Assembly: GCF_963675165.1 (NCBI RefSeq)
Contig: NC_087379.1
Coordinates: 4,031,442-4,095,441 of the forward strand
Direction of reading: 5' to 3'
Length of the DNA stretch: 64,000 nucleotides
Origin: Halichondria panicea
Lineage: Eukaryota > Porifera > Demospongiae > Suberitida > Halichondriidae
This document shows positions 33,092-57,300 of this stretch, piece after piece (positions within the stretch are counted from its first letter, which is position 1; every line of letters starts with the position of its first letter). The notes below the pieces were generated by a model. The model was not told where the DNA came from and did not search any database. It saw nothing but the letters and a program-made list of their open reading frames with translations. Position numbers and translations under genes: made by a program.

Positions 33092-33219
33092 GGCTAAGGC
33101 TAGGCTAGAGCAAGCCTTTTCCGGTTAAGGTTGCCGCGAGTCTAAGTCTACAAGTAACGCCCGATTATGTGCTCCTTTGTAAACTGTTTTGCACATGCGC
33201 TAAATAGATCACTAGGTCT

Positions 33220-33525
33220 AGGGTAGCGCCAGCGATCGGAGTACGGCCGATGTTTTTAATATACGTAATGATAGACCTTGATTAGTGCTCTCTAGTAGTG
33301 GTCTTGGATTTCCAGTGCCTTGCTTGGTTCTCTAGATATGAAGGCCGAAAGTAGCTGGGCGTGGTCTGGCAAGTGGGTAAAGGGTGCTAGGTATGAAAGT
33401 GGCTTAATGGGGGTCAGAGGTCAGTTTGGAAAAGGGTTGGGCTTGCAAATGAGAATCCGGATGAGGACATGTCTGGGTCAGAGGTCAGATGGGCTGGGCA
33501 TCCGGATGACACTGTACTGCGGTTT
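33220..33525 (+). repeat. Segment duplicated in inverted orientation at 45560-45785
   Basis: Shared text includes CGGCCGATGTTTT, TTGATTAGTGCTCTCTAGT, GGGTTGGGCTTGCAAATGAG and GACATGTCTGGGTCAGAGGT. This copy carries about 100 extra bases in the middle. The other copy ends just before the start codon of the secreted protein at 45806. Confidence 0.8.
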
Positions 33526-34661
33526 TCAGAGTTCTTGCATCTCCAATGTCTAGAGCGGAAGTACCTGTCACGTGAACCGTTACGTAACAAGATTGAAGTC
33601 TAGCTTCATTCTAAACCGATTTTTTCCCAATACATGATTTGGGAGAAAATCAACCTTGGAAATAGCCTTTGCAAGCCTTTTGCATCACCACTGAAGCTAT
33701 CCTTGAGATTGTAAGCACTTCCAATAGTTTTGTGAGCTACTATTAGTAACACAGGACTGGATGTCTGGAGCTAAGAGAGAGAGATTCTACTGTCTATATG
33801 ACTCATCACTGACATCAGCTTGCAGCAACACAAAATGAGTAGGCAGACCGGGGTAGTCACTTCAATCAGTTCCTTATATAATACTGAGAAGCTACACTCT
33901 TATTTCAGACTTTTCTGGATAACTAGTAACAAATAATTTTGTCTGTAAATGAAAACTCATGTAAAAAAACTTGCCTGACTCAGCAATATTTGTGCTCCCG
34001 TGATGTTGTCCAACCAGAGGAGGCGCGAAGCACTTAACCTTTGCTCATTAGGTCTCTAATTGCCGTTGTGTTAATTGCATGCCAGTCTCATGAATTAGCC
34101 GCCCTTCGAGTTTACTTTCAGCTTATTTAGAGGGACGTGCAAGAACCGACGGTCATGATGGTACATGTACATGCTTTTTCTTTTGTATCAGGCCGATTGG
34201 TATGATGACATGTACGTATTTGACTCATGTCTTGTAGGTGTAGGGTATAATGCAGATTTGTAACTTCCTTACTCTGGGTTGCCACTCGTACTCGTACTTG
34301 GCAGTCGAGGTCAAAGTTCAAGAAAACGCACATGATACACAATAATACCCCCCCCACAATAATAAAGATACACATGATCAGAGCTAAAAAGTAGCTCTAC
34401 TGACTTAGTAGGAAATACATACTTGTATAAGTGTAGTGTATAAGCACTCTGTTTGTGTGCATACTCTGTTTGTGTGCTTACGCCCAGTGCAAGAAAGGGA
34501 GCACCACTGAAAAAGTGGATACATGTACGTACCCAATAGTGTCCAATTGACGGGCTAGATGTACATAGAATAATGTTACAGAGGCATTTGCAACTATTTT
34601 TGACTGCCATAACAAAATGTATTCAAAACAGGCTGGCATTCTTTTAAAATAAAGCACGTAC

Positions 34662-36627
34662 GTTTGCCCAGCTGTCTGGTAAGAGCTGATGCTGGCGATG
34701 GGTCCCACATCAAACTGGAGAGAGATGCCAGGCTTGCTCCCGTGTCTCTGGCCCTGTGCACACTCCTCACTGCCTACAATGAACTCAGTCTGTGAACCAG
34801 AAGAAAACACCGATAATTTCTCAGCATTTAGAGAGATTTTAGGGAGGTAGATACATAACTACTGAAGCCTCTCAAAAAAGAGAGGTGGCAGAGGTTGTTT
34901 AGACATTACATGTCAGCATTGCACAAAGTTTGAGTGGTCTACATAACGGACACCTTCGGGGAACAACGTTTTGGCTTTGATAATCACTAGTACGTGCATG
35001 TATATATACGGGTACTTTTTTTACCCATTACATGTCCTGTATGCCCAATAGTAACTCAATCTCTTATTTACACCCCAATAGGTGCTAAGTCAGGTACGTA
35101 CACATGTAGTAAAGCTGACCTGAACTTTCCGAAGGAGTCAACCACTTTTTTCTGTGTAAGGACAGGACAGGAGAACATTATAATTACCAAAACAAAAAAA
35201 CACGTGCAGCACTGACGTAGCACGCACATAAACAATACATGAACAGCTAAGAGAGAGAGCCAGTGTTTTCTTGGCTTGCTAGCTAAAGCTCTAATACAAG
35301 TGAGGTGGAACAGTAACAGTATGCAGTTCACACTATCTGCAGTGGAGTTACCTGGCAGCAGTCTCCAGTATTGATATCCTGCCACGCCGCCATTCTCAAT
35401 CTGGGCGGCCATACTCTTGCTACCTCCACCTGGTGTTACGCAACCTGATTGGTCAGATCCATGAGAAGGCGTTGTATGGAGAAAATGTTGCTGGACAGGT
35501 GTGCTTGAGCTGCAGAAAAGTGCGACAAAAAGCCATACACTTACAGTAACGGACGATCGATCAAGTCGATCATCCATCATTGGTATAGCCCAGAAGGTCG
35601 AATACAAGACCTTTTCGTCCCTAATGTTTATTGTGCCGGGACTCATCAGTGGACTGCACGCGCACTCAGTAAATGTACTTTGCTCATACTATTAGCGGTT
35701 TCTAGAACTAATAAATAATTACTTGCATCCAGTGTAATTTAATGGAAAGTGGTCATGGCAATAGGCAAATGGACTAAGTGTACATGTAGTTATGGTCCAA
35801 CAGGACAGATTCTATGGCTATCTATGCAAATGTATGTGGTACATCATCACACAATAATTTAAACGGACTCCCAAATATTCGTTTAGCGGCAGGGGGGGTT
35901 CATTTAACCAATTAAATATTAAGTGGTGTAAATCATGTTACAAAGGGGTTGTATGGTAAGCATCAGTCAACCAATAAACACATTCTTGGCAATCACACTG
36001 AGACGGTAAAGACCCACTAGACAATAAACATTAAGTGACGTAGCTACATTCAAAGTTAGCTCCAAAAAACAGGCCTGCTTTCGAAAAAGGACCCACTTGG
36101 ATAAAAGTTCTGCAAGGGGCAAGAAAGTGCCTATTTCGACAAAAGACCAAGGGCTATATAGCCTATTTTCCTACAATTTGGCAGGCACGTATTTTGGGGC
36201 TGAAAGTGACATTGTCTGCGTCAGCATGACCTTCCTGGCACAGAACACAGTCAACACAGTCATCAATGCCACTACGTACACACACTTACAATGAGATGTC
36301 TCGGCAGCTCTTTGAGCTGGACAGGGTCCTTCTCCAGTCTGCGGAACAGCTGTGGGGGAGGGGGAGAGGTCACACGAAATTCTATGAGCCAATCATACGA
36401 GGGAATGCATACAGTAACTTACTCAGCCACACATAATTATAGGATAAGTGTAACGCTAGGAGGTGGAACGGTTATGCGCATCCTATACATGTAGGCACAC
36501 GTAGCTATTTAGGGCACCTCTCAGTATTTGTTTAGCCTTACGCAATGTTTTAGCGGCCTGAATACGGTACAAACATTACAAGTACGTACCTCTTCAGCTT
36601 GAGAGTCCTCTTGTGTGTTTGTCTGAT
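34662..36627 (-). CDS. Exons of an unrecognised minus-strand gene
   Basis: Several short open segments have good splice signals: 36627-36590 (codes TNTQEDSQAEE), 36349-36290 (20 codons, LFRRLEKDPVQLKELP...), 35509-35352, 35151-35120 (KKVVDSFGKF) and 34789-34662 (TEFIVGSEECAQGQRHGSK...). Another candidate exon of the same strand is at 45308-45153. The first two are duplicated at 39613-39576 and 39335-39276. I do not recognise the protein. Phases do not join between all neighbours, so exons are missing, and the frame of 35509-35352 is ambiguous (two frames look coding, one with an internal TAA). It could be one gene disrupted by the insertions at 36.9-45 kb, or pieces of two. Confidence 0.4.
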
Positions 36628-36636
36628 CTGTAAGTA
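36246..36636 (+). repeat. Segmental duplication, copy A (uninterrupted)
   Basis: About 390 bp are nearly identical to 38383-38429 plus 39278-39622. It covers two exons of the unrecognised minus-strand gene and the intron between them. Confidence 0.9.
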
Positions 36637-36653
36637 CTTGCAGCCATTAATTT

Positions 36654-36809
36654 TAGACTTGAACTTTTGGCATTGATCTTTTTTAACAACACAATCACCA
36701 TCGATCATTACCCACTAATAATCATGATCAATGTTTGCTTTATGTTATGTAGCTTTGGCACCTCCACCGAGGCATCAGCACCTACGGTGCTTTCATTGGA
36801 AAGGTAATT
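36654..36809 (-). repeat. Dispersed repeat (copy 2, reversed)
   Basis: This is the reverse complement of the unit at 18835-19080: TTGAACTTTTGGCATTGAT at one end and GGCACCTCCACCGAGGCATC...GCTTTCATT at the other. Confidence 0.65.
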
Positions 36810-36940
36810 CTGAGAGCTACTGCATCAATATTATTAGTTTAGGAATTGAACATGCTCTCAAAAATGCTACTAAATAGGTGTGAGGCTCTACTTTAAATAG
36901 GGATAAATACCTTCATTAGCCTTCATTATGACTAATCACA

Positions 36941-37385
36941 GAGCCTGTGTGTGGGGGGGGGGGAAGGTTGTGTACAGTATATTAGCCATGAGTGTGTGTG
37001 TGAGGGGGGGGGGAGGTTGTGTACAGTATCTATGAGCCTGTGTGTGTGGGGGGGGGGGAGGTTGTGTACAGTATATTAGCTATAAGCCTGTGTGTGGGGG
37101 GGGAGGTTGTGTACAGTATATTAGCTATGAGCCTGTGTGTGTGGGGGGAAGGTTGTGTACAGTATATTAGCCATGAGAGTGTGTGTGTGTGTGTGGGGGG
37201 GGGGAGGTTGTGTACAGTATCTATGAGCCTGTGTGTGTGTGGGGGGGAGGTTGTGTACAGTATATTAGCTATAAGCCTGTGTGTGTGGGGGGGGGGGGGA
37301 GGTTGTGTACAGTATATTAGCTATGAGCCTGTGTGTGTGGGGGGAAGGTTGTGTATGTGTTGGGGGGGGGGGGGAAGTTGTGTAC
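36941..37385 (+). repeat. G-rich minisatellite
   Basis: About nine imperfect units of 45-65 bp follow the plan CCTGTGTGTG-GGGGGGG-AGGTTGTGTACAGTATATTAGC. A weaker continuation lies at 37490-37600. Each unit brings a run of 6-12 G on the plus strand, giving strong G-quadruplex potential. Open frames through it are a by-product of the repeat. Confidence 0.9.
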
Positions 37386-37700
37386 AGTATGCACACCTTG
37401 CACGTAGGGGTGGTCCCAATATCGTCTCCTGCATAATCGAGTGATCCCTGTGGCTAGCCGTCAGTCGTGTCTAAGGCGGGTGCCCTCAGCTGGGGGGGGG
37501 GGGGATATTTAGCAACACAGCTCAATATGTACAGTACATTAGGTATAAAGCCTGTTGTGTGTGTAGGGGGGGGGGCTATGTACAGTACATTAGGTATAAG
37601 CCTGCCATGTACATACATGTAGGAGGTGATGAAGCAAAGTGGGTGATACCTAAAAATAGCTAACCACACATTACAGGGTTTATGCTAAGTCCTGGTAGGT

Positions 37701-37971
37701 CTTGAATAAACAAGATAGATCTTGAATAGAAATTGAGCAATAATTTAGAACCACAATGTACCTGTGCTGGACATGATGAAGTTAAAGACCTAGGGAGTTT
37801 TCTGATTTTAGTCAAGTCATTAATGTCTTACTATTTTTATCATACATCATGCTTCATCATGTCCAGCACCCTTACTATTTTTATCATACATGCTTCATCA
37901 TGTCCAGCACAGGCATTGTGGTTCTAAATTATTGCTCAATTTCTATTCAAGATCTATCTTGTTTATTCAAG
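37701..37971. mobile_element. 271-bp palindromic MITE
   Basis: Arms of about 75 bp start CTTGAATAAACAAGATAGAT and are inverted at the other end. The centre has two direct copies of CATGCTTCATCATGTCCAGC. A piece (GTTTTCTGATTTTAGTCAAGT) recurs inverted at about 38357-38380. Confidence 0.8.
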
Positions 37972-38138
37972 CCAGCACCCTTACTATTTTTATATCATAC
38001 ATCAGGCAATAATTATTGAGAAAGCTCAACATTTTCCTGCTTATACAATGCTGTACATGATGAAGCAATACGAGTTATATAACTATATAAATTATGGAAG
38101 TGTATTAATTTTATAGAACAGCTATATCGATCAGAATA

Positions 38139-38346
38139 CCGTATAGCGGGTCATTTTCGTGGGGGTAAAATATTCGTTATTTTCGTGGGCAGGCTGACCT
38201 CCACGAAATTTTAACGTAGGCGTGGGCTTATCGGAACGTAGGAATGCCGTGCAGCCACGAGGCTAAACGAAATTTTTACTCACGAAAACCACCGTTTCTC
38301 GAGTTGAACGAATTTTTTACCCCCACGAAACTTTCCCGCTATACGG
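38139..38346. mobile_element. TA-type MITE, CCGTATAGCG family, copy 2
   Basis: Ends CCGTATAGCGGG / CCCGCTATACGG have TA on both sides. The interior is made of inverted TTTCGTGGGGGTAAA / TTTTACCCCCACGAAA text. No coding capacity. Confidence 0.85.
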
Positions 38347-38429
38347 TACACATAACTATGACTTGACTAAAATCAGAAAACTCATGCTTCAACACAGTCA
38401 TCAATGCTACTACGTACACACACTTACAA

Positions 38430-39277
38430 AGAAATGTACTCTTGTTTAACCAAAGCAAGTGTAAATACATGACTATATCAAGAAAATTCAGCCCACCACT
38501 TCCCAACATGTGTCTTAATATCAGTGGACGTCCCCTACTTAAAGTTGACCACTACAAGTACCTTGGCGTGTGGATCTCTCACGACCTCTCATGGTCAAAA
38601 CACATAGAAGAAATGTGCAGAAATACCTGCAAGCAGGTTGGTATAATTTACCGACAGTTCTATGGCCACTCGTCACTAGAATGTTTTAAGACAACTCTAC
38701 ATCTCCCTTGTGAGATCAAAACTGGAATATGCTGCCCCTGTTTGGGATCCACACCAAAAAACAAATTCTCACAAAATAGAAAAAGTACAAAAGTTTGCCC
38801 TTAAAATCTGCACAAAACTTTGGAATATGGACTACGACTCCCTATTAGATACTGTGGACCTACCGTCCCTTTCTACAAGAAGATTGTACCTGAAGCTATC
38901 ATACCTTTACCAGGTAATAAATGGTAACTTTAAATTCCCTGATCCACCACTGGAAAGAAGAGTATGCCCTCTCAATCTAAGAAGCACAAAAAATATACAG
39001 TTTGAAAGACCAATTTGCAGAACAAATGCATATGCGAACTCTTTTTTCCCAAAGGCAATATCTGTGTGGAATGAATTACCACTGGAGCTGCAGGAAAGTA
39101 CATCGATTTTGTCATTTAAGAGAAATGTACTCTGTCACTTGCATTAGTATAATATTAGTCTTTATTTTTAATTTGTACTCGCTATTGTAAGTAATATATA
39201 CAGGGCGCACATTAGGTTAGCATAATATGCTACTAGTGTATCCATGCATTTTGCAGAATTATTATAAAAAAAAAAAA
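38430..39277 (+). mobile_element. 5'-truncated non-LTR retrotransposon (jockey/CR1-like RT end)
   Basis: The insert codes the end of a LINE reverse transcriptase: YLGVWISHDLSWSKHI, EYAAPVWDPHQ, VQKFALKIC, RTNAYANSFFPKAISVWNELP. One base is missing near 38700, so the frame shifts. The rest reads to a stop at 39147. A tail of about 12 A ends at 39277. It split copy B of a segmental duplication exactly at an exon border: the sequence on both sides joins to match 36246-36636. The element is dead, being truncated and frameshifted. Confidence 0.88.
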
Positions 39278-39622
39278 TGAGATGTCTCGGCAGCTCTTTG
39301 AGCAAGACAGGGTGCTTCTCCAGTCTGCGGAACAGCTGTGGGGGAGGGGGAGAGGTCACACGAAATTCTATGAGCCAATCATACGAGGGAATGCATACAG
39401 TAACTTACTCAGCCACATATAATTATAGGATAAGTGTAACGCTAGGAGGTGGAACGGTTATGCGCATCCTATACATGTAGGCACACGTAGCTATTTAGGG
39501 CACCTCTCAGTATTTGTTTAGCCTTACGCAATGTTTTAGCGGCCTGAATACGGTACAAACATTACAAGTACGTACCTCTTCAGCTTGAGAGTCCTCTTGT
39601 GTGTTTGTCTGATCTGTAAGTA
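39278..39622 (+). repeat. Segmental duplication, copy B (right part)
   Basis: This part matches 36292-36633 almost base for base. Minus-strand exon copies lie at 39335-39276 (differs by Asp to His and Gln to Leu) and 39613-39576. The first has lost its GTAAGT donor to the LINE insertion. Confidence 0.9.
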
Positions 39623-40117
39623 CGCAGGTACGCAATCACAATCACAATTTTACACCTGGCAGGGAACAAGACAGATCTAGCTGACACAATTTGTATGTAT
39701 ATACAACAATCATCACAACATCACTATATGCAATGCTGGATAGATATAATCATCTCACTTACCTTATTTTTCATAACTTGTGACAACCTAAAAATTGTGC
39801 CTAGGGTTTTTCCTCTGTGCTGGTCATGACCACGAAGTGACAACTCAGCTTGAAAAAAACCACACACCATTTTCTGTGTGCTGATGGTCAGCAAAGTGAC
39901 CCTAACCACAAAGTGACCAGGTAGCTCAGCTGAAAAAACCACAAACCACCACACTGGACAGCTAAAACACCTCAAGTATTATTTTTAGATTGTAGTTACA
40001 TCATTGGTTAGTTGCATATAAAGGCTACACAGTACACAAACAGCACTATTCATCTCACCAAACTCAGCAAGTTGATCTCACAGAGCAAGATATTCCAGGT
40101 GCAAAGAGAACTCTGCG

Positions 40118-43100
40118 ATGTACAGCATGGAAGACTCGCCTCTCACCCCAATAAAGGACTCAGAGGTTTGTACACCCTTGCTGTATGTACTTTGTGATAT
40201 ATAGAGTGGAAACTGCATTTGGTGAACCGCATTTGAAAACAACAAGTATGTATTGTATACACGGCAACTACATATAATGCTCAGAAACCGGATATACCGT
40301 ATAGCGTATAATTTTTGTGGGGCAAAATATTCGTAGTTTTCGTGGTTGAAGGTCTGACCACGAATATTTTACCCACGAATGAAGCGACCTTGCCTACCTT
40401 TACCTGCAGTGCAAGCTCCAACCACGAAAATATTACCCACGAAATGTCTCAATATTGCTGAACCACGAATATTTTGTCCCCCGAAAATTACCCGCTATAC
40501 GGTATGCTAAGAAATTTAACCCACCTGTATACAGGAACTTGAAGACTACTCTGAACAGGACAGGCTACAAGAGTCCGACTCGCCCCCTACTCCAAAGAGG
40601 AGATGTCTACAGGTGAGAAAATTAATAGTTACATCATCAGCACAACCACGTACAACCACGTACAGTGCATATAATTATACATATGTAGGCCCCCAATTTT
40701 TTCCATAAAATTGCCGCGAATTTCGCGTATTATATTTTGACTACGTGCTATATTGTTTTTCGCAGCTTATAATTGGTTGAAATCCGTCCCTATTTACGGT
40801 ATATGCACGTACATGTATAATTATATGCTAAATTTACCAGAGCAGACCATTATCACCCCCCTTCAGGATTCGCAACCAGACACACCCTTCTCCACTGTGG
40901 AATACCCTCAAGATTCGGACTACATTCTAACACCAATGGACATAAAATGTACTAATGCGCATGAAAAGGCGCTTTGTTTTCTTGATTTGAGCCAGTTGGA
41001 CGAGTTTGTCGAACGCCTCAATGAGATTCGTCAGTGCCCTGAACCAGCTTGTAGGGGTAACCTTGTTCCCACCTCAGTCAAGAGGGGAATAGGTGGAGTT
41101 GCAACAATAACATACAATTGTGACGGATGCCGAGGACAAGAGCTCACACTGGACACGTGCAAGGTACAAGAAGATGGAAGGAACAGTGAGATCACACGAG
41201 CACTGCATGTCGCCTTTATCATCAGTGGGTGTACCTTCACAACCTACACCAAGGTCTTACGCTACTCGCTGGGAATTCAGTCCACATACGACGACCGGTT
41301 TCAAGACACTATTCGCATTATGCACCCAGTGGTCAAAAAAATGGTGGATGAGATGTGCACAGAAGCCAAAGAGGCCATGAAACAAATGAAACCAGAAGAG
41401 CTAGGATCGTGGAAGAGAGCCGTCACTGTTGCAGATGGAGCATGGATGACAAGAGGTCATCATTCGAAGAACTTTACTTTCAGTATTAGAAATTATTTCA
41501 CAGGTGAATTGCTCTTTCGAATACATCTGTCTCAAAAGGGCGGAGACAATCTGTACAAGGGGACGTCCGAGGGAGCGGAGGGCTATGCAGCCAGGATACT
41601 CTTCCAGCAAGCCAAAGAACAGGGGATGAAATTGGAAATAAACTGGCAGGTAATGGTTATACTTAATGGCATTATATCTATGATTATAAGCGAGCTAGAA
41701 TGATGCAATTCCTGCCTTAATTTACAAAATAATTACACCAACCCCTAATTGGCAGGATGATGACTCCTCCACCTCAAAGGCCATAAGAGGTATCTACGAG
41801 GACGTAGAAATAATGATGTGTCGTGGACACGAGGGAAGGTCTCATCTCAACCAGTTGAAAAAGCTGATGCAAATGAAAGCGTTCACCTCTACAATGTTTA
41901 AAAGTCATCAAAATCACATTGCAGACATACAGAACAAGCCCTGCTCCTGTTCTGGAAAAAAGCACAAGAAAGGCTGCGGATGTTTCACTGACCAGTTCAT
42001 CAAAAACTCCAGAAATTTGTTCTCAAAAATTCTGTCGAACAGCGAGTCCAAAGAGGAATTTGAAAAAAAAACCCGTAGTCTCTACCATCATGCAATTGAT
42101 GAACACGTGTGGGATGGCGGATCTTGCGACTTTCATGCCCTAAAAGTGTGCAGCTGTGGAGAGTGCCCCGACAAAACAAACTTTGTGTGCGAGGGACAAG
42201 AGTACCACACACGGGATAAGCTGACATGTCCTTTCCATATGATGGCCTACAGGACGGAGATTGAGCACAGGGCTCGAAAGTCATCATCGCTGATCCACCC
42301 AGAACTAAAAGCAGGGCACACAAACTCGATGGAATCATCACACAACATCCTAATTCGATTTAGGCAGAAGCACATCTCCTTGGAAAAGAGTCACTACGAG
42401 CTCTCCACAGAGCTGGGCCTCCTTCAAGCCAACCTTACCTCAATGAGAAAAAACAAAGGACCTCATTACCACTGGATTCCTATGCTGTACCAAAGGTTGG
42501 GGCTGCCCCTCTATACAGGAATTGAGGATGCTCTGGAGAAGTACGGAAAATCCAGAGACAAGCAATTGAGAGAAATCAAAGAGGATAAGCACAAGAAGAG
42601 AAGGATACGATATAAGGTCAAGAGAAAGATGGACAGGGAAGAAAGAATAAAGTGGTCAAAGAAACTCGGTGATGCATACGGTTGTGAATGGAGGAGAAAG
42701 AGAACAAAGAAGGATCAAGCTGCCACGAAACTCTGCAAGTGTGGCTCCAGCGAACACAGAAACAAATCTCACAGAGACTGCCCACTGAACAAGCGACACG
42801 CAAGCAGGTCAGAGTTGTAATGAGATTTTAAAACAACATACAGACACGCAAAAAACATTGTGTCCAGTTAATATGATTGAAGCACACCATGCATGCATCT
42901 ATACAATTTACTGATCTGATGTCCGGGTTTCTTATTTACATGCAGGGATGCCAGGAGTCATCCTAAATCAGAGAAACAAGGACCTTCTTCAGCTGAATCA
43001 GATGAGTGAGTAATACGTACACATGAATGCATGTATACTAACAGAAGCAATGTGTAATGTACAGCAGCCGCCACAATGGGATTTTGTGGTGTGATTGTGA

Positions 43101-44395
43101 TAACATGTTCGCTATAAATATTTTTACAACACAGAAACAATGGGACAGACGCTAGTGTGAACAGGGACAGCAGTGACAGCAGTGAAAGCGACTTTGAGGA
43201 TCAAATTTTGCACGCAGAACGAGGCGAATGTATCTGCCCAAATCCCAAAGCACACAAGAGAAACTGCCCAGCGGGCAATAGGAACCGTGGGAAAAGGCTC
43301 TTCCAGACTTTCAAACCTGGAGACAAGGTAGCCATCCACGTTACGAGGTTGTCTGGGAAACACCTTGTCTGTCGCATTGCTCAAGTGACCAACAAGCGAT
43401 ACACACTCCATTCCAAGCGAGGGACCCTATTGAAGCGATTTGGAGGAAGTGAGCTACACAAATTGGGGGAAGACGAAGGCTACGAGATTCCCCTCGACAA
43501 CTGGCGCCAGAGCGAGGTCGTGTCAATCAGAGCACTGCAGGAAGAAGACATGGTGAGCTGCTCGTGTGCAATCGACACTCCAGACTATCTGTACGTGGAG
43601 GACGATGATTCAGAAGAGGACCCAGACACACAACAGGGTGATAACACTATTCAAACATCCATATACTGTCTGTCATCAACTGACATCAACAAGATTGATA
43701 GACCCACAGGATGGCTGAATGACATCGTCATCACTGCAAGCCAACACCTTTTGTACCAGCATTTCCCGCACATTGAAGGCCTACAGCCACCTACACTCCA
43801 AGCGATTAGAGGATTCAATGTGAACAAAGGAGAATTTGTTCAAATTTTAAACGTGAGCAATATGCACTGGTGTGTTGTGTCTACTGTTGGCTGTAGCCCG
43901 GGGCAAGTAAACGTCTACGACACCATGTACCGCAGCGTTCAGAAGTCAACGATTCCAATTATAGCAAGCCTGATGTTATGCACCTTACCCAACCTCACAA
44001 TCAACATGATGGATGTCGGTCTACAGAGAAACGGCTCTGACTGTGGTGTGCTAGCTATCGCCATTGCCTATGACTTATGTGCTGGGAACGATCCGTTGAC
44101 CGTGGTGTACGAACACACATCCACAAGACAACACCTGAAGGAGAGCCTCAAGAAGTGCTGCTTCGATCGCTTCCCAATAAGGAATTCGAGGACCTCAACA
44201 GGTGTGATCCACGCTGAGCATGTCCCCCTGTACTGCACATGCAGAATGCCCGAGGAAAACATCGAAGACGATCCTATGGCAGAATGTGATGTTTGCAAGG
44301 GGTGGTATCATCGATCGTGCTTGAGCATTCCCAACGAAGTGTTTCAAGTTGATGGCGTCGAATGGAAGTGCGAGGCATGCACAGAACAATCATAA
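40118..44395 (+). CDS. Mutator-like transposase fused to Ulp1 SUMO protease and PHD finger
   Basis: Six exons: 40118-40165, 40535-40612, 40867-41649, 41756-42807, 42946-43005 and 43135-44395. They are in frame, 1093 residues. N-terminus: acidic, Ser/Thr-Pro-rich. Residues about 65-580 resemble Mutator-type DDE transposases: Asp232 in VADGAWMTRG, an EGAEG phrase, Asp304-306 in WQDDDSS followed by C-x2-H (MMCRGHEG), and Glu496 in TNSMESSHN. Zinc knuckles of the C-x-C...H...CP type lie near 630-650 and 705-724. A Tudor/SH3-like stretch (FKPGDKVAI) follows. Then a Ulp1/C48 domain with GWLND and the triad His918 (MHW), Asp936 (VYD) and Cys977 (RNGSDCG). A C4HC3 PHD finger ends the protein (CTC, CDVC, WYHRSC, CEAC). 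Every catalytic residue is present. No matching left terminal repeat was found, so it is either an element with unseen ends or a domesticated gene. Confidence 0.85.
40297..40502. mobile_element. TA-type MITE, CCGTATAGCG family, copy 3
   Basis: Ends CCGTATAGCG / CGCTATACGG are flanked by TA on both sides. Interior words CCACGAATATTTTACCCACG are inverted. It lies in intron 1 of the transposase gene at 40118. Confidence 0.85.
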
Positions 44396-45559: not shown

Positions 45560-45785
45560 TGACCCGTTTTATCTCGCTGACCTCTGAACTCCAGTACTAC
45601 GTCATCCGGATGCCCAGCCCATCTGACCTCTGACCCAGACATGTCGTCATCCGGATTCTCATTTGCAAGCCCAACCCTTTTCAGTAAGGCACTGAAAATC
45701 CAAGACCACCACTAGAGAGCACTAATCAAGGTCTATCATCAGGTATATTAAAACATCGGCCGTAAATCGGATCGCTGGCTATACC
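45560..45785 (-). repeat. Inverted copy of the 33220-33525 segment
   Basis: It ends about 20 bp before the ATG of the secreted protein at 45806, so it contains or abuts that gene's promoter. See 33220. Confidence 0.8.
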
Positions 45786-45805
45786 TTATATTTTTGCCAA
45801 GAGCG

Positions 45806-47512
45806 ATGAAGCTGATTTTAGCTACAATCTGTTTCCAAATTATCTTTGCCTACTTGGTAATGGGCCAGAGAGAATGTGTCCCTGACCCTTGTGAATCAGC
45901 CGAGTGCCCTCGCTTCCTTAATGCTGATTGCAGAATTGATCCAGAAAATTGCACTGTCAAGTTTTTTTGGGGAGAAAGAAACGTCTCTGATCAATGTGCA
46001 GTGCCGACTTGTGACACAAGACAATGTGGAAAAAGTCGAGACTGCATAGAGAATGTTTTTCCACCTAGCTGCCCACAAGACAATCCGGAATGCCGACAAT
46101 ACATAAAAACCAGGTGCATGTTGAGACCTCAGTCGAGACCACTAACCTGTAATGATGTAAAATGTGAAGCTGGAATGACTTGTCACTTTCGAGAACGTGG
46201 AGATAGTTTTCCACCAGTAGTGCGATGCATACCTTCTGTACCGAAAGACTGCTCTGAGCTGAAATGTGACGATGGGTCCAGGTGTGTTCTGCAAGGTAGA
46301 AGGCCATTCTGTGTTCCCAGTGTCACTACTAGTCCTCCGACTACTACTAAACCTAACGATTGCTCTGAACTAAACTGCAAGCAAGATGAGATGTGCATTA
46401 TAAGTGGCACTACACCAACTTGTGTTCCCTTCACTACCCCTACGCCAGCTCCTGACTGCTCTGAGTTTGAGTGTAAAGATGATGAGATGTGTGTGCTAAG
46501 AGAAATGTCACCAATTTGCATACCTGCAACCCCATTTACGACAGTAACTACACCGACAAGTACAACTCCAAACTTTAATGTCATGGCGGAGTCTTGTAGC
46601 GAGCTAGATTGTCTTGCTTTTTTCACAGTATGTAATCAAGTCAATGCAAACTTTGCAGTTTGTGAAGAGCCTACGGAATGCACGGATGAGTTCAATGAGA
46701 GGTGCATGGACATTCATCTCGTTTGTGGTGGTACATCATTTGATACTGTAACTTGTGTTGTTCCATCCAGCTGCAACCAACTCACATGTAATGAAGAGCA
46801 AAATTGTATTGAATTTACATCTGGTAACAACATCATAGCACAATGTATAGAAAATACAGGTCCTATGTTCAGCTTGCGTTGTGAAGATCTCTCATGTCCA
46901 GAAGGTCAGGGTTGCCTAGCCAATGATTATCCTTCACTAAATCTTATTTTCGCTTCATGCATTGCCAATGACGTTTTGGATAGCATCGCTATCAGTATTG
47001 AATTGGCTTCGAGGATCCCGCAAACATGCTCCTCTCTTGAATGTGGAAATGAGAGTTGTATTGATATACAGAGAAATGAAAACCAGGTTCTCCAATCGTG
47101 CATTCCTCAAAATTGCTTAACTAATATGAACTGTTCAGCTGTCTTTGATCAATGCGTCTCCCTTACTGATCTCGACTTATTAGCTGCTCCTGAGTCAATT
47201 TGCGTACCAACAGTATTTCAAGCATTGGTAACCAATAAATCATGCAAAGAAAATGAAAGAGTTTGTTCAGAGGGCTTGGAGTGCCAAGATGTATATATAG
47301 ACGGGAACCTTATCGGCACAGTTTGTAATACTCCAGTACCACCACTTGGCAGAACGTGTGACGAAATTGAGTGTATAGGTGAAAATGTAGGTTGTGTAAT
47401 AAACGAGATTCCTAGTAGGCCTGATTTGGCCCAACTGGCTTCGTGTATTGACAATTTCGATGTAATAACTACGAGCATTATATCAGGACTTCGTGCTCTT
47501 GGCCTGATTTGA
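45806..47512 (+). CDS. Intronless secreted cysteine-rich repeat protein
   Basis: A single open frame of 568 residues. The ATG at 45806 opens a signal peptide (hydrophobic residues 3-19, cleavage likely before QREC). Residues 21-60 form a module DPC...CP...FFWGERNVSDQC, like the DPC...ARFFIGKKEV module in the gene at 21139-24688. Then come degenerate repeats of about 40 residues, each starting with C-S-E-L/F-x-C followed by C-(V/I)...P-x-C-(V/I)-P, with Thr/Pro-rich linkers between the first ones. No transmembrane segment or GPI signal is clear. The terminal ILISGLRALGLI-type tail is mildly hydrophobic. Function unknown; an extracellular binding or matrix role is a guess. Lack of introns in an intron-rich neighbourhood suggests retroposition or a single large exon. 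Confidence 0.8.
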   Translation: MKLILATICFQIIFAYLVMGQRECVPDPCESAECPRFLNADCRIDPENCTVKFFWGERNVSDQCAVPTCDTRQCGKSRDCIENVFPPSCPQDNPECRQYIKTRCMLRPQSRPLTCNDVKCEAGMTCHFRERGDSFPPVVRCIPSVPKDCSELKCDDGSRCVLQGRRPFCVPSVTTSPPTTTKPNDCSELNCKQDEMCIISGTTPTCVPFTTPTPAPDCSEFECKDDEMCVLREMSPICIPATPFTTVTTPTSTTPNFNVMAESCSELDCLAFFTVCNQVNANFAVCEEPTECTDEFNERCMDIHLVCGGTSFDTVTCVVPSSCNQLTCNEEQNCIEFTSGNNIIAQCIENTGPMFSLRCEDLSCPEGQGCLANDYPSLNLIFASCIANDVLDSIAISIELASRIPQTCSSLECGNESCIDIQRNENQVLQSCIPQNCLTNMNCSAVFDQCVSLTDLDLLAAPESICVPTVFQALVTNKSCKENERVCSEGLECQDVYIDGNLIGTVCNTPVPPLGRTCDEIECIGENVGCVINEIPSRPDLAQLASCIDNFDVITTSIISGLRALGLI

Positions 47513-54300: not shown

Positions 54301-57300
54301 AAAACATTAATGTGACTAGATACATCTATAGAGGTTGAGCATCTTCTAACTTTTCCAATGCACTTTTCCTGACAACTACCGGAATTGTGTACAAGCTACA
54401 TGTAGCCTATACTTACATCTACGTACTATCATGCTCTAAACCACCACATAATGATAGCACTCACACTCTCCTAGGAGGTGACCCAGCCCTGAAGGAGGAC
54501 ACCGTCCCAATGATCTGCTCTCTATCATCCAAGTTGGCAAAGATGATGGTGTTCTTGTTGGCCCTGGTGGCAATAAGGATGCCATTGGGGAGGGTTTGTT
54601 CCTGATTTAGACGCTCTATCTGCACTACGTCTCGCAGTGGGATCACCACCCACACCACACCCACCAACTGCGTGCAATATATTGAGATGAGTCAGTGAAT
54701 TACACTGAGCATGTGTACATGGAGCAATGTGTGTGTTAATTATATGCACTACGTTGGTATTGATCATTGTGTTTCTTACACCCATACGTATCAATTCATC
54801 CAAGCAACCCTTTGGCTACAGTACAATTAAGTGTGTACGTACCTTGCTGGAGAAACATATGTAGTTTGGTGAGCAGTAGAGCTTGCCCAGGATGGGTGCT
54901 TTTGAGGCGGGGTTCCACATGGTGCACTCACAGTAGCCATCCAGCCCCTCAGTCTCAGGCAGTCGAAAAGTGGATCTGCAGTGAATACAGATCAAGTGAA
55001 TGCAAAGTACAACGTATTGTGTAGTACATGACAGACAATTAGTGATATATGTACCTGCCAAATGTTAAGGGGTACAAGTGTATGTACGTGTATAAAGCTG
55101 ACTGAGTGTATTGATGATGAAACGTAAACTTCTTGGGAAAGAAATGTTAAACAGAAAGTCTTACGTACGCACAAACAATTACAGTACAGTAGAACCTCGA
55201 TTATCCGGCCCTCCATTATCCGGAACCTCGATTATCCGGCTTGGCATTTTTTTATCAGATTAGAAAATGGGCGTGTCCCTAAAATGCGCATGCGCGTTAC
55301 AGCTGTTACCATGGAGACATACCTGCTTATCTTATGCGCATGTGGCACTGCTGTTTATCAATAAAGTGGGTGGATCAAGGCGTGGTTTATCTATTCAATT
55401 ATCCGGCATATTCACTTATCCGGCCTGCTTCTGGAACCAAGGTGTCCGGATAATCGAGGTTCTACTGTATTGTACCTACCTGTACATGTACAGCTGTGTT
55501 GCAGAATCTACAGTGCCATCATGCACATGTATGTGCTCAGCTCATAGCTGGTCTCCCTCACCTGTATTGCTCCGTGAGCTTCCTGGCATCGAGGACTTGG
55601 CTGAGAGGAGTTTTGGCCACAGAGGCAGCCCGCAGCTCTGAGAGCAGGGACTGGTGGTCTGATTTAGTACTACCCAATAGCACTCTGAGGAAGGAGGGGT
55701 GATGTAAGTAAGGAGAGATAGTGCTGCACAATAACTACATGTACAACGTCATGCAAGGACTCACTCCTTGGTGGCAATCTTGGCGAGCTGCTCCATGAGC
55801 TCGAGGGTCTCCCACCTTTTCATAAACATGGAGAAGTGATGCTCCTTACCTCCACTCTTGACAAAGAGCCCCTCACTCAGACGAGCTGATTCAGAAAATA
55901 TACCCTGTGTGTGGGAAGAGCGCAGGAACGTGCATACACACAAAATGCTGGTACAACACCAGTCCACATCCTACAAAGTCACTTGAGCAGTTTTCCCATG
56001 CGTAAAAAAATGACATGCATTGACAACACAAATACCCTAAAATGGACCGCTGTCTATATAACCCCCAGATGGACAGACTATCCCAACAGTAGAACCCCAA
56101 TCATTAATTTTGGCTGGGCAAATTTCTCCACTAGAGGATAAAGTAATTAAATGCGTATACGCAAACAACACCTGTTACCATGGAGATAGGTTTATCAATT
56201 CGCTTAGATGGATTATCTGATCTGGGTCTGGAACAAAGGGTGGTCCCCCGATAATCGAGGCTCTATGGTACTGTGGACAAATTAGCTACTCCCCAAGTGT
56301 CTAGCTTTAATTAATCGAGCAGCATTATGAAAGTTACATGCATTATAACTATAGCAATGCGAGTTCTCTGGTGCACACTAACCCAGACCCTCACATGTCC
56401 ACACTCCCCACAGACCCTCACACAACACACTCCCCACAGACCCTCTCACACAACACGCTCCCCACAGACCCTCTCATGTCCACACTCCCCAAGACCCTCT
56501 CACACAACACATTTTCCACAGACCCTCACACAACACACTCCCCACAGACCCTCTCACACAACACGCTCCCCACAGACCCTCTCATGTCCACACTCCCCAC
56601 AGACCCTCTCACGCAACACACTCTCCACAGACCCTCACACAACACACTCTCCACAGACCCTCTCACGCAACACGCTTCCCCAACACCCTCTCATGCAACA
56701 CACTCCCCACAGACCCTCTCACGCAACACACTCCCCACAGACCCTCACACACAACACACTCCCCACAGACTCTCTCACGCAACACACTCCCCACAGACCC
56801 TCACACACAGCACTCTCCCCACAGACCCTCTCATGTTCACACTCCCCACAGACCCTCTCACACAACACACTCCCCACATACTCCCTCACACAACACACTC
56901 CTCACAGACTGTCTCACAACACACTCCTCACAGACTCTCACACAACACACTATCCACATACCCTCTCATACAACACACTCACGTTAATGCTGGTCCACCT
57001 GAGCACAATCATTATCTCAGCCCCCATGAAGTAGGAGTAGAAGCAGAGATGGTTTACAGATAGGTACATCCATCCTTGTCGCGGCAGAGAGCTTTTCCAA
57101 TAGCTGCAAGAGTAGTCTGTGGGCCAAGGAGTGCTCATGAGTTACAAATTGTACTGCTTTGTACTGCAATAATACTACCGCTATTAAATTACACCACAAA
57201 GGTACGACCGTGTACGTACATGTATCTTAGCTATAGAGCATACCATGCACTACCTTTCTACGCAGGCCAGGAGCAGAAGTGGGCATGGGGACAAGGCTAA

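Follow-up and report, generated by a model that had tools for sequence, protein, structure and literature searches.

A six-exon transposase gene with a Ulp1-type protease domain and a PHD finger in the Halichondria panicea genome: copies, ends and class of its element

Here we analyzed a transposase gene of the sponge Halichondria panicea, which lies on the forward strand at 40118-44395 of a 64,000-nucleotide stretch of contig NC_087379.1 (positions 4,031,442 to 4,095,441; this whole stretch is called the window, and window positions are counted from its first nucleotide). The gene is composed of six exons with GT/AG borders, which join into one stop-free frame of 1093 amino acids holding a DDE transposase core, two zinc knuckles, a Ulp1/C48 protease domain and a plant homeodomain (PHD) finger (Table 1). 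It is real and intact in this copy, and it is most likely the gene of a transposon. New are the association of a Kolobok-like core of Pfam family PF20700 with a Ulp1-PHD cassette and the presence of three carriers of this cassette (PF20700, pogo and integrase-like) in one genome. The combination of transposase, Ulp1 and PHD is in itself not unprecedented, as Ginger1-9, the Ulp1-bearing Mutators and the PHD-bearing Rehavkus precede it.

Gene model and the two enzyme halves

The continuous six-exon frame was first proposed in a first-pass annotation made from the letters alone, and the gene model bears it out at the same coordinates. The borders of exons 3 to 6 are conserved in three of the close copies of the element (E1, E3 and E4), and exon 2 is identical in E1 and 82% identical in E3 and E4, where its borders were not recovered. 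Exon 3 has more than one possible acceptor, as 40843, 40846 and 40867 are all in frame; 40867 was used, having the best pyrimidine tract by eye and an AG that is kept in E1, E3 and E4. Exon 4 has three in-frame donors, with alternatives at 42813 and 42816.

Table 1. Positions of the gene, its domains and the parts of its element in the window
Feature	Position	Strand	Remarks
Exon 1	40118..40165	+	residues 1-16, start codon 40118
Exon 2	40535..40612	+	residues 17-42
Exon 3	40867..41649	+	residues 43-303, first half of DDE core
Exon 4	41756..42807	+	second half of DDE core, basic tail, zinc knuckle 1
Exon 5	42946..43005	+	
Exon 6	43135..44395	+	zinc knuckle 2, Ulp1 domain, PHD finger, stop codon
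PF20700 match	40993-41526	+	within exon 3
D232	41434-41436	+	exon 3
D304/D306	41756-41764	+	exon 4
CxxH (C325-R-G-H328)	41819-41830	+	exon 4
Cysteine cluster CxCx8CxC	41942..41983	+	between CxxH and catalytic E; Kolobok-type position
Second Cys/His cluster CDFHALKVCSCGEC	42125..42166	+	between CxxH and E
E496	42332-42334	+	exon 4
Zinc knuckle 1	42734-42781	+	exon 4
Zinc knuckle 2	43229-43267	+	exon 6
Ulp1/C48 protease domain	43640..44179	+	about residues 843-1022
His918	within 43862-43879	+	
Asp936	within 43910-43930	+	
Gln971 and Cys977	within 44018-44053	+	
PHD finger	44234..44380	+	residues 1041-1089
Upstream part common with E1	34520..40117	+	blocks 34520-35804, 36636-38437, 39276-40048, interrupted by other repeats
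Inverted full-length terminal-repeat copy	33219..33534	-	no duplication matching right end
Right terminal repeat	45579..45788	+	ends ..GGCTATACC then TTA

For the transposase half, a search with PF20700 (named "Mutator-like transposase" in Pfam) had been proposed, and exon 3 alone gave 29.5 bits against a curated cut-off of 26.5; when the genome itself was searched with this model the window exon again came above the cut-off, with 27.9 bits. In an hmmscan of the whole spliced protein PF20700 was not listed and only PHD models appeared, and the profile of the DDE half gave no match below E 0.39 among solved structures. The residues D232, D304/D306 and E496 and the motif C325-x2-H328 stand where the first-pass annotation had placed them, and D232, D304, D306, E496 and the Cys and His of CxxH are invariant in all six rows of the family alignment, which include two near-copy pairs and so represent four distinct lineages. 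The first cysteine cluster appears to be formed by C366, C368, C377 and C379, with C377 lost in the paralogous locus L007. The two zinc knuckles claimed earlier were located at residues 630-645 and 706-718; both are absent from the paralog L008 in the alignment.

In the C-terminal half, the claimed Ulp1/C48 domain with its His-Asp-Cys triad is confirmed by the family profile and alignment, with Pfam C48 giving a weak match to the window sequence alone (E 0.3). A profile of eight family rows matched solved structures of a Ulp1-like protease (6dg4, 9.6e-7), SENP1 (5.1e-6) and yeast Ulp1 (3.5e-4). The protease His and Cys and the oxyanion Gln are invariant in 12 of 12 aligned rows and the Asp in 11 of 12, L032 being gapped there; this alignment leaves out the near-copies L009, L011, L012 and L040, three matches interrupted by a stop (L033, L038 and one of the two L035 hits) and search matches whose sequence was not fetched. 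The C-terminal PHD finger, likewise claimed earlier, reaches 28.3 bits in exon 6 against a cut-off of 24, and the nearest solved structures to its profile are PHF2, PPS and PHF8, with EBS and BPTF also among the matches. At the positions that we take to form the aromatic cage, the Trp is kept in 12/12 rows, the first Tyr in 8/12 and the Met in 8/12.

For the family as a whole, the suggestion of the first-pass annotation that transposase, Ulp1-type protease and PHD finger are fused in a single chain is supported by the window frame together with two paralogous loci, L008 (1109 amino acids) and L009 (1210 amino acids), and because these hold all three parts in one intronless open frame each, the fusion does not depend on predicted splicing. 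Their identity with the window protein is 35-41%, depending on the alignment; their PF20700 matches (48.3 and 48.1 bits) cover most of the model length, and their matches to PHD (18.7 and 19.7 bits, cut-off 24) and C48 (16.9 and 16.6 bits, cut-off 20.7) are all below the cut-offs. The same two frames, along with the conserved borders of exons 3 to 6, make it extremely unlikely that protease and PHD finger belong to a gene of their own which an error of prediction joined to the transposase, although this explanation can draw on the loci L006, L007 and L037, where the protease part is in a different frame from the DDE part, on the locus L005, where no protease was found, and on a pogo locus (L036/L052) with a separate Ulp1-PHD frame.

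Copies, ends and target sites of the element

Four close copies were tracked in the genome, E1 at C2:3.32 Mb, E2 at C2:8.60 Mb, E3 at C2:4.66 Mb and E4 at C8:3.74 Mb, which makes five with the window, two of them broken, and fragments lie on C5, C8 and C39; the search gave 60 matches and 42 of 269 candidates were scored, so that these copy numbers are lower bounds. E1 and E2 have 97.5% and 97.3% identity with the window DNA over 5.7-6.0 kb, and E3 and E4 have 96.7% and 96.5% over 4.0 kb and 91.3% over 1.2 kb. A comparison of E1 with E2 gives two blocks, one of 5.9 kb without any difference and one of 9.1 kb at 99.96% identity, between which E1 has about 0.23 kb more than E2; right of the terminal repeat their sequences diverge. 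Exons 3 to 6 are intact in E3 and E4, which look like segmental duplicates with long flanks in common. The viral contigs gave 37 pattern matches, with no relative among them.

Homology of E1-E4 to the window ends at the right terminal repeat (45788-45794), the fragment on C39 has the same end, and the same repeat builds near-palindromic miniature inverted-repeat transposable elements (MITEs) of about 285-390 bp. The gene most likely belongs to a transposon, since there are five close copies with the window counted, two of them broken, and their homology ends at a single terminal repeat which is found in MITEs as well. The earlier suggestion of a domesticated host regulator, in which transposase, protease and PHD finger would have been retained, is highly unlikely given a multi-copy family at 96-97% DNA identity with further fragments, a terminal repeat whose flanks differ between copies, the MITEs with the same end, the broken copy E1 and the invariant DDE residues of the aligned paralogs. 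What it would explain is the intact frame and a ratio of nonsynonymous to synonymous rates (dN/dS) below 1: per site, the copies differ less often by amino-acid changes than by silent ones, with dN/dS of 0.15 between window and E1 (exons 4-6; 12 synonymous and 7 other changes), 0.50 between window and E3 (exons 3-6; about 0.44 in the C-terminal part) and 0.47 between E1 and E3 (exons 4-6), all obtained by simple counting with no significance test.

As E1 shares blocks of sequence upstream of the gene, the element seems to reach further in that direction. Its left end was looked for with the tip sequence (allowing 4 errors at most in the window and E1-E4, and 2 mismatches at most genome-wide), in partial copies and by extension of E3, E2 and a rearranged copy on C2. 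The genome-wide tip search gave 29 matches, with 2 for a reversed-pattern control. The inverted terminal-repeat copy upstream was rejected as the left end, there being no matching duplication; its altered tip at window 33222 has CTAG outside and was missed by the junction-search pattern. Giant elements of 39-44 kb with left ends at C2:4622985 and C8:3783325 were also considered, and they were dropped because the C2 end is another degraded inverted family copy whose upstream flank is common with that of the C8 end (a comparison made with the C2 end extended).

Directly outside the tip, TTAA was found in 11 of 22 junction rows, while it occupies 0.42% of window positions; when the duplicate pairs L003/L004 and L026/L027 are counted once it is 10 of 20, and four rows with an internal TATATAGCC join were excluded. 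The other rows have ATAA, TATA, TAAA, TTCA/TGAA, CTAA and three unrelated sequences. Among the transposase-bearing copies TTAA stands in five of six junction rows, E3 and E4 being one junction. The MITE L017 is bordered by TTAA on both sides and the MITE L020 by TTCA on both sides. The ends read ..CC-3' at the right in the window and the copies, and GG..CC at both ends in L017.

Two neighbouring features were recorded. A 348-bp direct repeat (36290-36637 and 39276-39623, 98.9% identical) flanks 2.6 kb of the upstream region, in which frames resembling the tail of a reverse transcriptase were seen by eye only (38367-39147). Immediately right of the element end, at 45752-47509, lies a cysteine-rich open frame of 586 amino acids, for which neither Pfam (E up to 1) nor the solved structures (E up to 0.001) gave a match.

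Relation to Kolobok and Mutator elements

The first-pass annotation called the core Mutator-like, which agrees with the Pfam name of PF20700, but three traits fit Kolobok better than a Mutator-like element (MULE): the insertion site, the GG..CC ends, and the cysteines that follow CxxH and precede the catalytic Glu. In the available text of PMC9587614, Kolobok elements are described with a TTAA target, 5'-RR..YY-3' ends, a C/DxxH motif and a zinc finger ahead of the catalytic Glu, the latter in nearly every lineage; C/DxxH between the second Asp and Glu is common to Kolobok, hAT, P, MuDR and Dada, and the zinc finger between this motif and Glu is said to be absent in MuDR. The right end and the MITE L017 match the RR..YY termini, and the window protein has both the CxxH and the cysteines before Glu; the Kolobok CCHC finger after the first Asp, given in the same text, was not seen in it. 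Duplications of 8-11 bp, which the available text of PMC6446971 gives for MULEs, were not matched by the duplications of 4 bp in L017 and L020, observed in these MITEs only.

A second line of comparison comes from the genome's two strongest PF20700 matches, L047 (651-2504) and L048 (481-2647), both of them interrupted. L048 has YqaJ above the cut-off downstream and L047 a weak match to a related exonuclease only; we take YqaJ to be the PD-D/ExK nuclease of KolobokE, so that the YqaJ-bearing copy would link the window family with that group. The DDE profile of the window family aligned to these two with a probability of 84.9 and an E-value of 6.4e-6, in an alignment which covers both Asp regions, the CxxH and the cysteine region and stops short of the catalytic Glu, and hhalign put the window cysteine region opposite a C/H cluster of L047/L048. 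Besides PF20700, no Pfam transposase model was listed for exons 3 and 4 (E up to 10) or for L005, L006, L008 and L009 (E up to 1), in searches that were filtered so that few matches above E 0.1 are retained; PF20700 itself was not listed for L005 and L006.

We also weighed whether the element is a genuine MULE/MuDR, a type in which terminal repeats are long and duplications span 8-11 bp. This reading would account for the Pfam name and for a terminal repeat that is long, as in many MULEs, and Ulp1-bearing Mutators have been reported in hydra and lancelet (PMC2836005, available text). It does not agree with TTAA at half of the junction rows, with the 4-bp duplications of two MITEs or with a cysteine cluster at the place of a zinc finger which MuDR is said to lack, nor did any other transposase model come up for the window exons. 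The presence of YqaJ, presumably the KolobokE nuclease, on the strong PF20700 copy L048 speaks in the same direction. We find this reading doubtful, and the window family is for now best read as Kolobok-like, its apparent TTAA preference, GG..CC ends and cysteines fitting Kolobok better than MULE traits. The accessories named for Kolobok in the available text of PMC9587614 are DEDDh, PD-D/ExK, His-Me, RecQ and KolX, with Ulp1-PHD not among them. In the open-licence literature searched (Repbase being outside its scope), nothing was found on Kolobok together with Ulp1, on a "Mutator-like" transposase with Ulp1 and a PHD finger, or on PF20700 with Mutator; for Kolobok with PHD, the fungal host-transposon fusions in the available text of PMC10799480 differ from the window fusion and were set aside.

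Possible role of the Ulp1-PHD cassette and its other carriers

On balance we think it probable that the gene encodes the transposase of a cut-and-paste DNA transposon family, with an RNase H-like DDE core of the PF20700 group that is nearest to Kolobok in insertion site and motifs, and the Ulp1-PHD part as an accessory of transposition. What was observed in its favour is a single chain in which neither enzyme half lacks a catalytic residue, a multi-copy family, a right end, a TTAA preference and, per site, more silent than amino-acid-changing differences between copies. If both halves are active and the family is still mobile, binding of the terminal repeat, excision and insertion at TTAA would be the work of the N-terminal half. 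The PHD finger would anchor the complex on the tails of histone H3, most likely where lysine 4 is trimethylated (H3K4me3) at open promoters. The protease may strip SUMO or a relative of it from nearby chromatin-bound silencing or repair factors, which would allow the element to be expressed, cut and joined. H3K4me3 is read by PHD proteins such as PHF2, PHF8 and BPTF, and SUMO modification has a role in transposon silencing in animals. With its own SUMO-type protease and histone reader, a transposase could directly counter the defence of the host, an idea that can be tested on the window copy because it is intact and shows clear catalytic residues in each part. For Ulp1 and OTU domains of transposons, Bao and others proposed that they may activate repair factors (PMC2836005, available text).

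Several observations weigh against this reading. Neither the left end nor a full element with two repeats was found in the window, in E1-E4, among the genome-wide tips (8 of the 29 matches lie outside the sequence fetched), in the partial copies or in the extensions, and no terminal repeats were found where they were searched for at the five paralog loci with a full-length DDE (L005-L009). Of these five loci, four have a protease match, in the same open frame in only two, and the 7 kb fetched of L005 hold none. In the window itself the right junction reads TTAT rather than TTAA, and matched duplications occur in two of the five MITEs having both tips, with none in L021, L022 and L023. A 50-bp tandem duplication breaks exon 3 of E1 (L001, C2:3322000-3331500), and E2 (L002, C2:8592500-8602000) is identical there. 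As the left limit of E1 is an assembly gap of 200 N, recent transposition of E1 and E2 and segmental or assembly duplication are indistinguishable; E2 in turn is no more than 50 kb away from the end of a scaffold, so that the two copies may have arisen by duplication of a segment or in assembly. For the protease, Pfam C48 is below the cut-off in every protein where it is listed, and a single-sequence AlphaFold2 run on exon 6 alone gave an unusable model with a predicted local distance difference test (pLDDT) value of 34.

The same cassette was found with other transposases. Three elements of 2.94 kb encode it (L010 382-3323, L011 386-3327 and L012 419-3360), having terminal repeats of 398 bp at 97.7% identity with TA at both repeat ends; a HTH_psq domain lies upstream of the cassette in a separate frame, and beyond this helix-turn-helix (HTH) part no transposase core was found upstream. 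L010 and L011 have flanks in common, and L012 is 99.9% identical to L010 with different flanks. At the pogo locus (L036 1261-3499 and L052 2-892) a pogo transposase, matched by HTH_psq in L052 (5.5e-10) and DDE_1 in L036 (1.5e-12), lies upstream of a Ulp1-PHD frame in the same orientation; that frame is separate from the transposase and stands beside it, so a single gene is putative here. The cassette is joined to an integrase-like tail in L031 (1798-4068), L032 and L035, in L031 within one frame of 757 amino acids, and upstream of L031 the locus L051 (539-871) has an H2C2 domain (1.3e-15); the integrase core itself gave a sub-cut-off match only (rve_3, E 0.018, in L035). The label Ginger-like rests on the tail and H2C2 evidence and on what we take to be a GPY/F-like motif.

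In a tree of 12 cassette rows the sequences sort by transposase class (PF20700 98/96, integrase 100/99, pogo 92/90 with a long-branch warning), the labels of L034, L010 and L035 being indirect (by near-identity to L008, by HTH and TA ends, and by an inverted partner, respectively). Since the tree sorts in this way, there seems to be one cassette with a separate lineage for each transposase class, and its recurrence with unrelated transposases suggests that it is of help. We tentatively propose, as a possibility on which we would not yet rely, that within this genome the cassette was passed among the unrelated PF20700/Kolobok-like, pogo and Ginger-like superfamilies as an interchangeable anti-silencing module, which would read active-promoter histones and strip SUMO from host silencing factors, and that in the window family it would be a new type of Kolobok accessory. 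It may instead be retained cargo, or it may shield the transposase from SUMO-directed turnover, with no part in transposition. Such an explanation suits a cassette found with three transposase types, including L010-L012 with their HTH part only; we hold it to be unlikely, because the conserved catalytic residues and the dN/dS of about 0.44 between window and E3 in the C-terminal part indicate a cassette that is in use.

The first-pass statement that such a fusion had no described precedent was too strong in the light of PMC2836005, whose available text tabulates Ginger1-9_HM of Hydra with Ulp1 and PHD (Table 1 there), refers in the legend of its Figure 1e to an alignment of "Ulp1 and plant homeodomain (PHD) domains in Ginger1 TPases, Mutator TPases" and describes Ulp1 in Mutators of hydra and lancelet. 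Ginger1-9_HM, with two introns and more than 22 copies, resembles the window gene as a DNA transposase with C-terminal Ulp1 and PHD, and differs in its DDE core of Gypsy-integrase type, zinc finger, GPY/F motif and CCGG/CCGT duplications. The window gene has instead a PF20700 core and TTAA-rich junctions, and the integrase-like fusion of this genome is a separate locus (L031/L051). The hydra and lancelet Mutators, known here by description, share with it a Mutator-type animal transposon with Ulp1, and the Mutators of Arabidopsis, maize, rice and melon share a DDE transposon carrying Ulp1 but are plant elements for which the available text does not mention a PHD fusion. Rehavkus, which serves as an outgroup in PMC6446971, is an animal case in which the transposase carries a PHD finger, but its duplications are of 9 bp, a minisatellite precedes its 3' repeat, and Ulp1 is not mentioned for it in the available text of PMC6446971.

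Elsewhere in the window, overlapping direct repeats (tandem arrays) were observed at 36941-37390 and 56365-56980, and the second array holds long open frames rich in proline, threonine and histidine.

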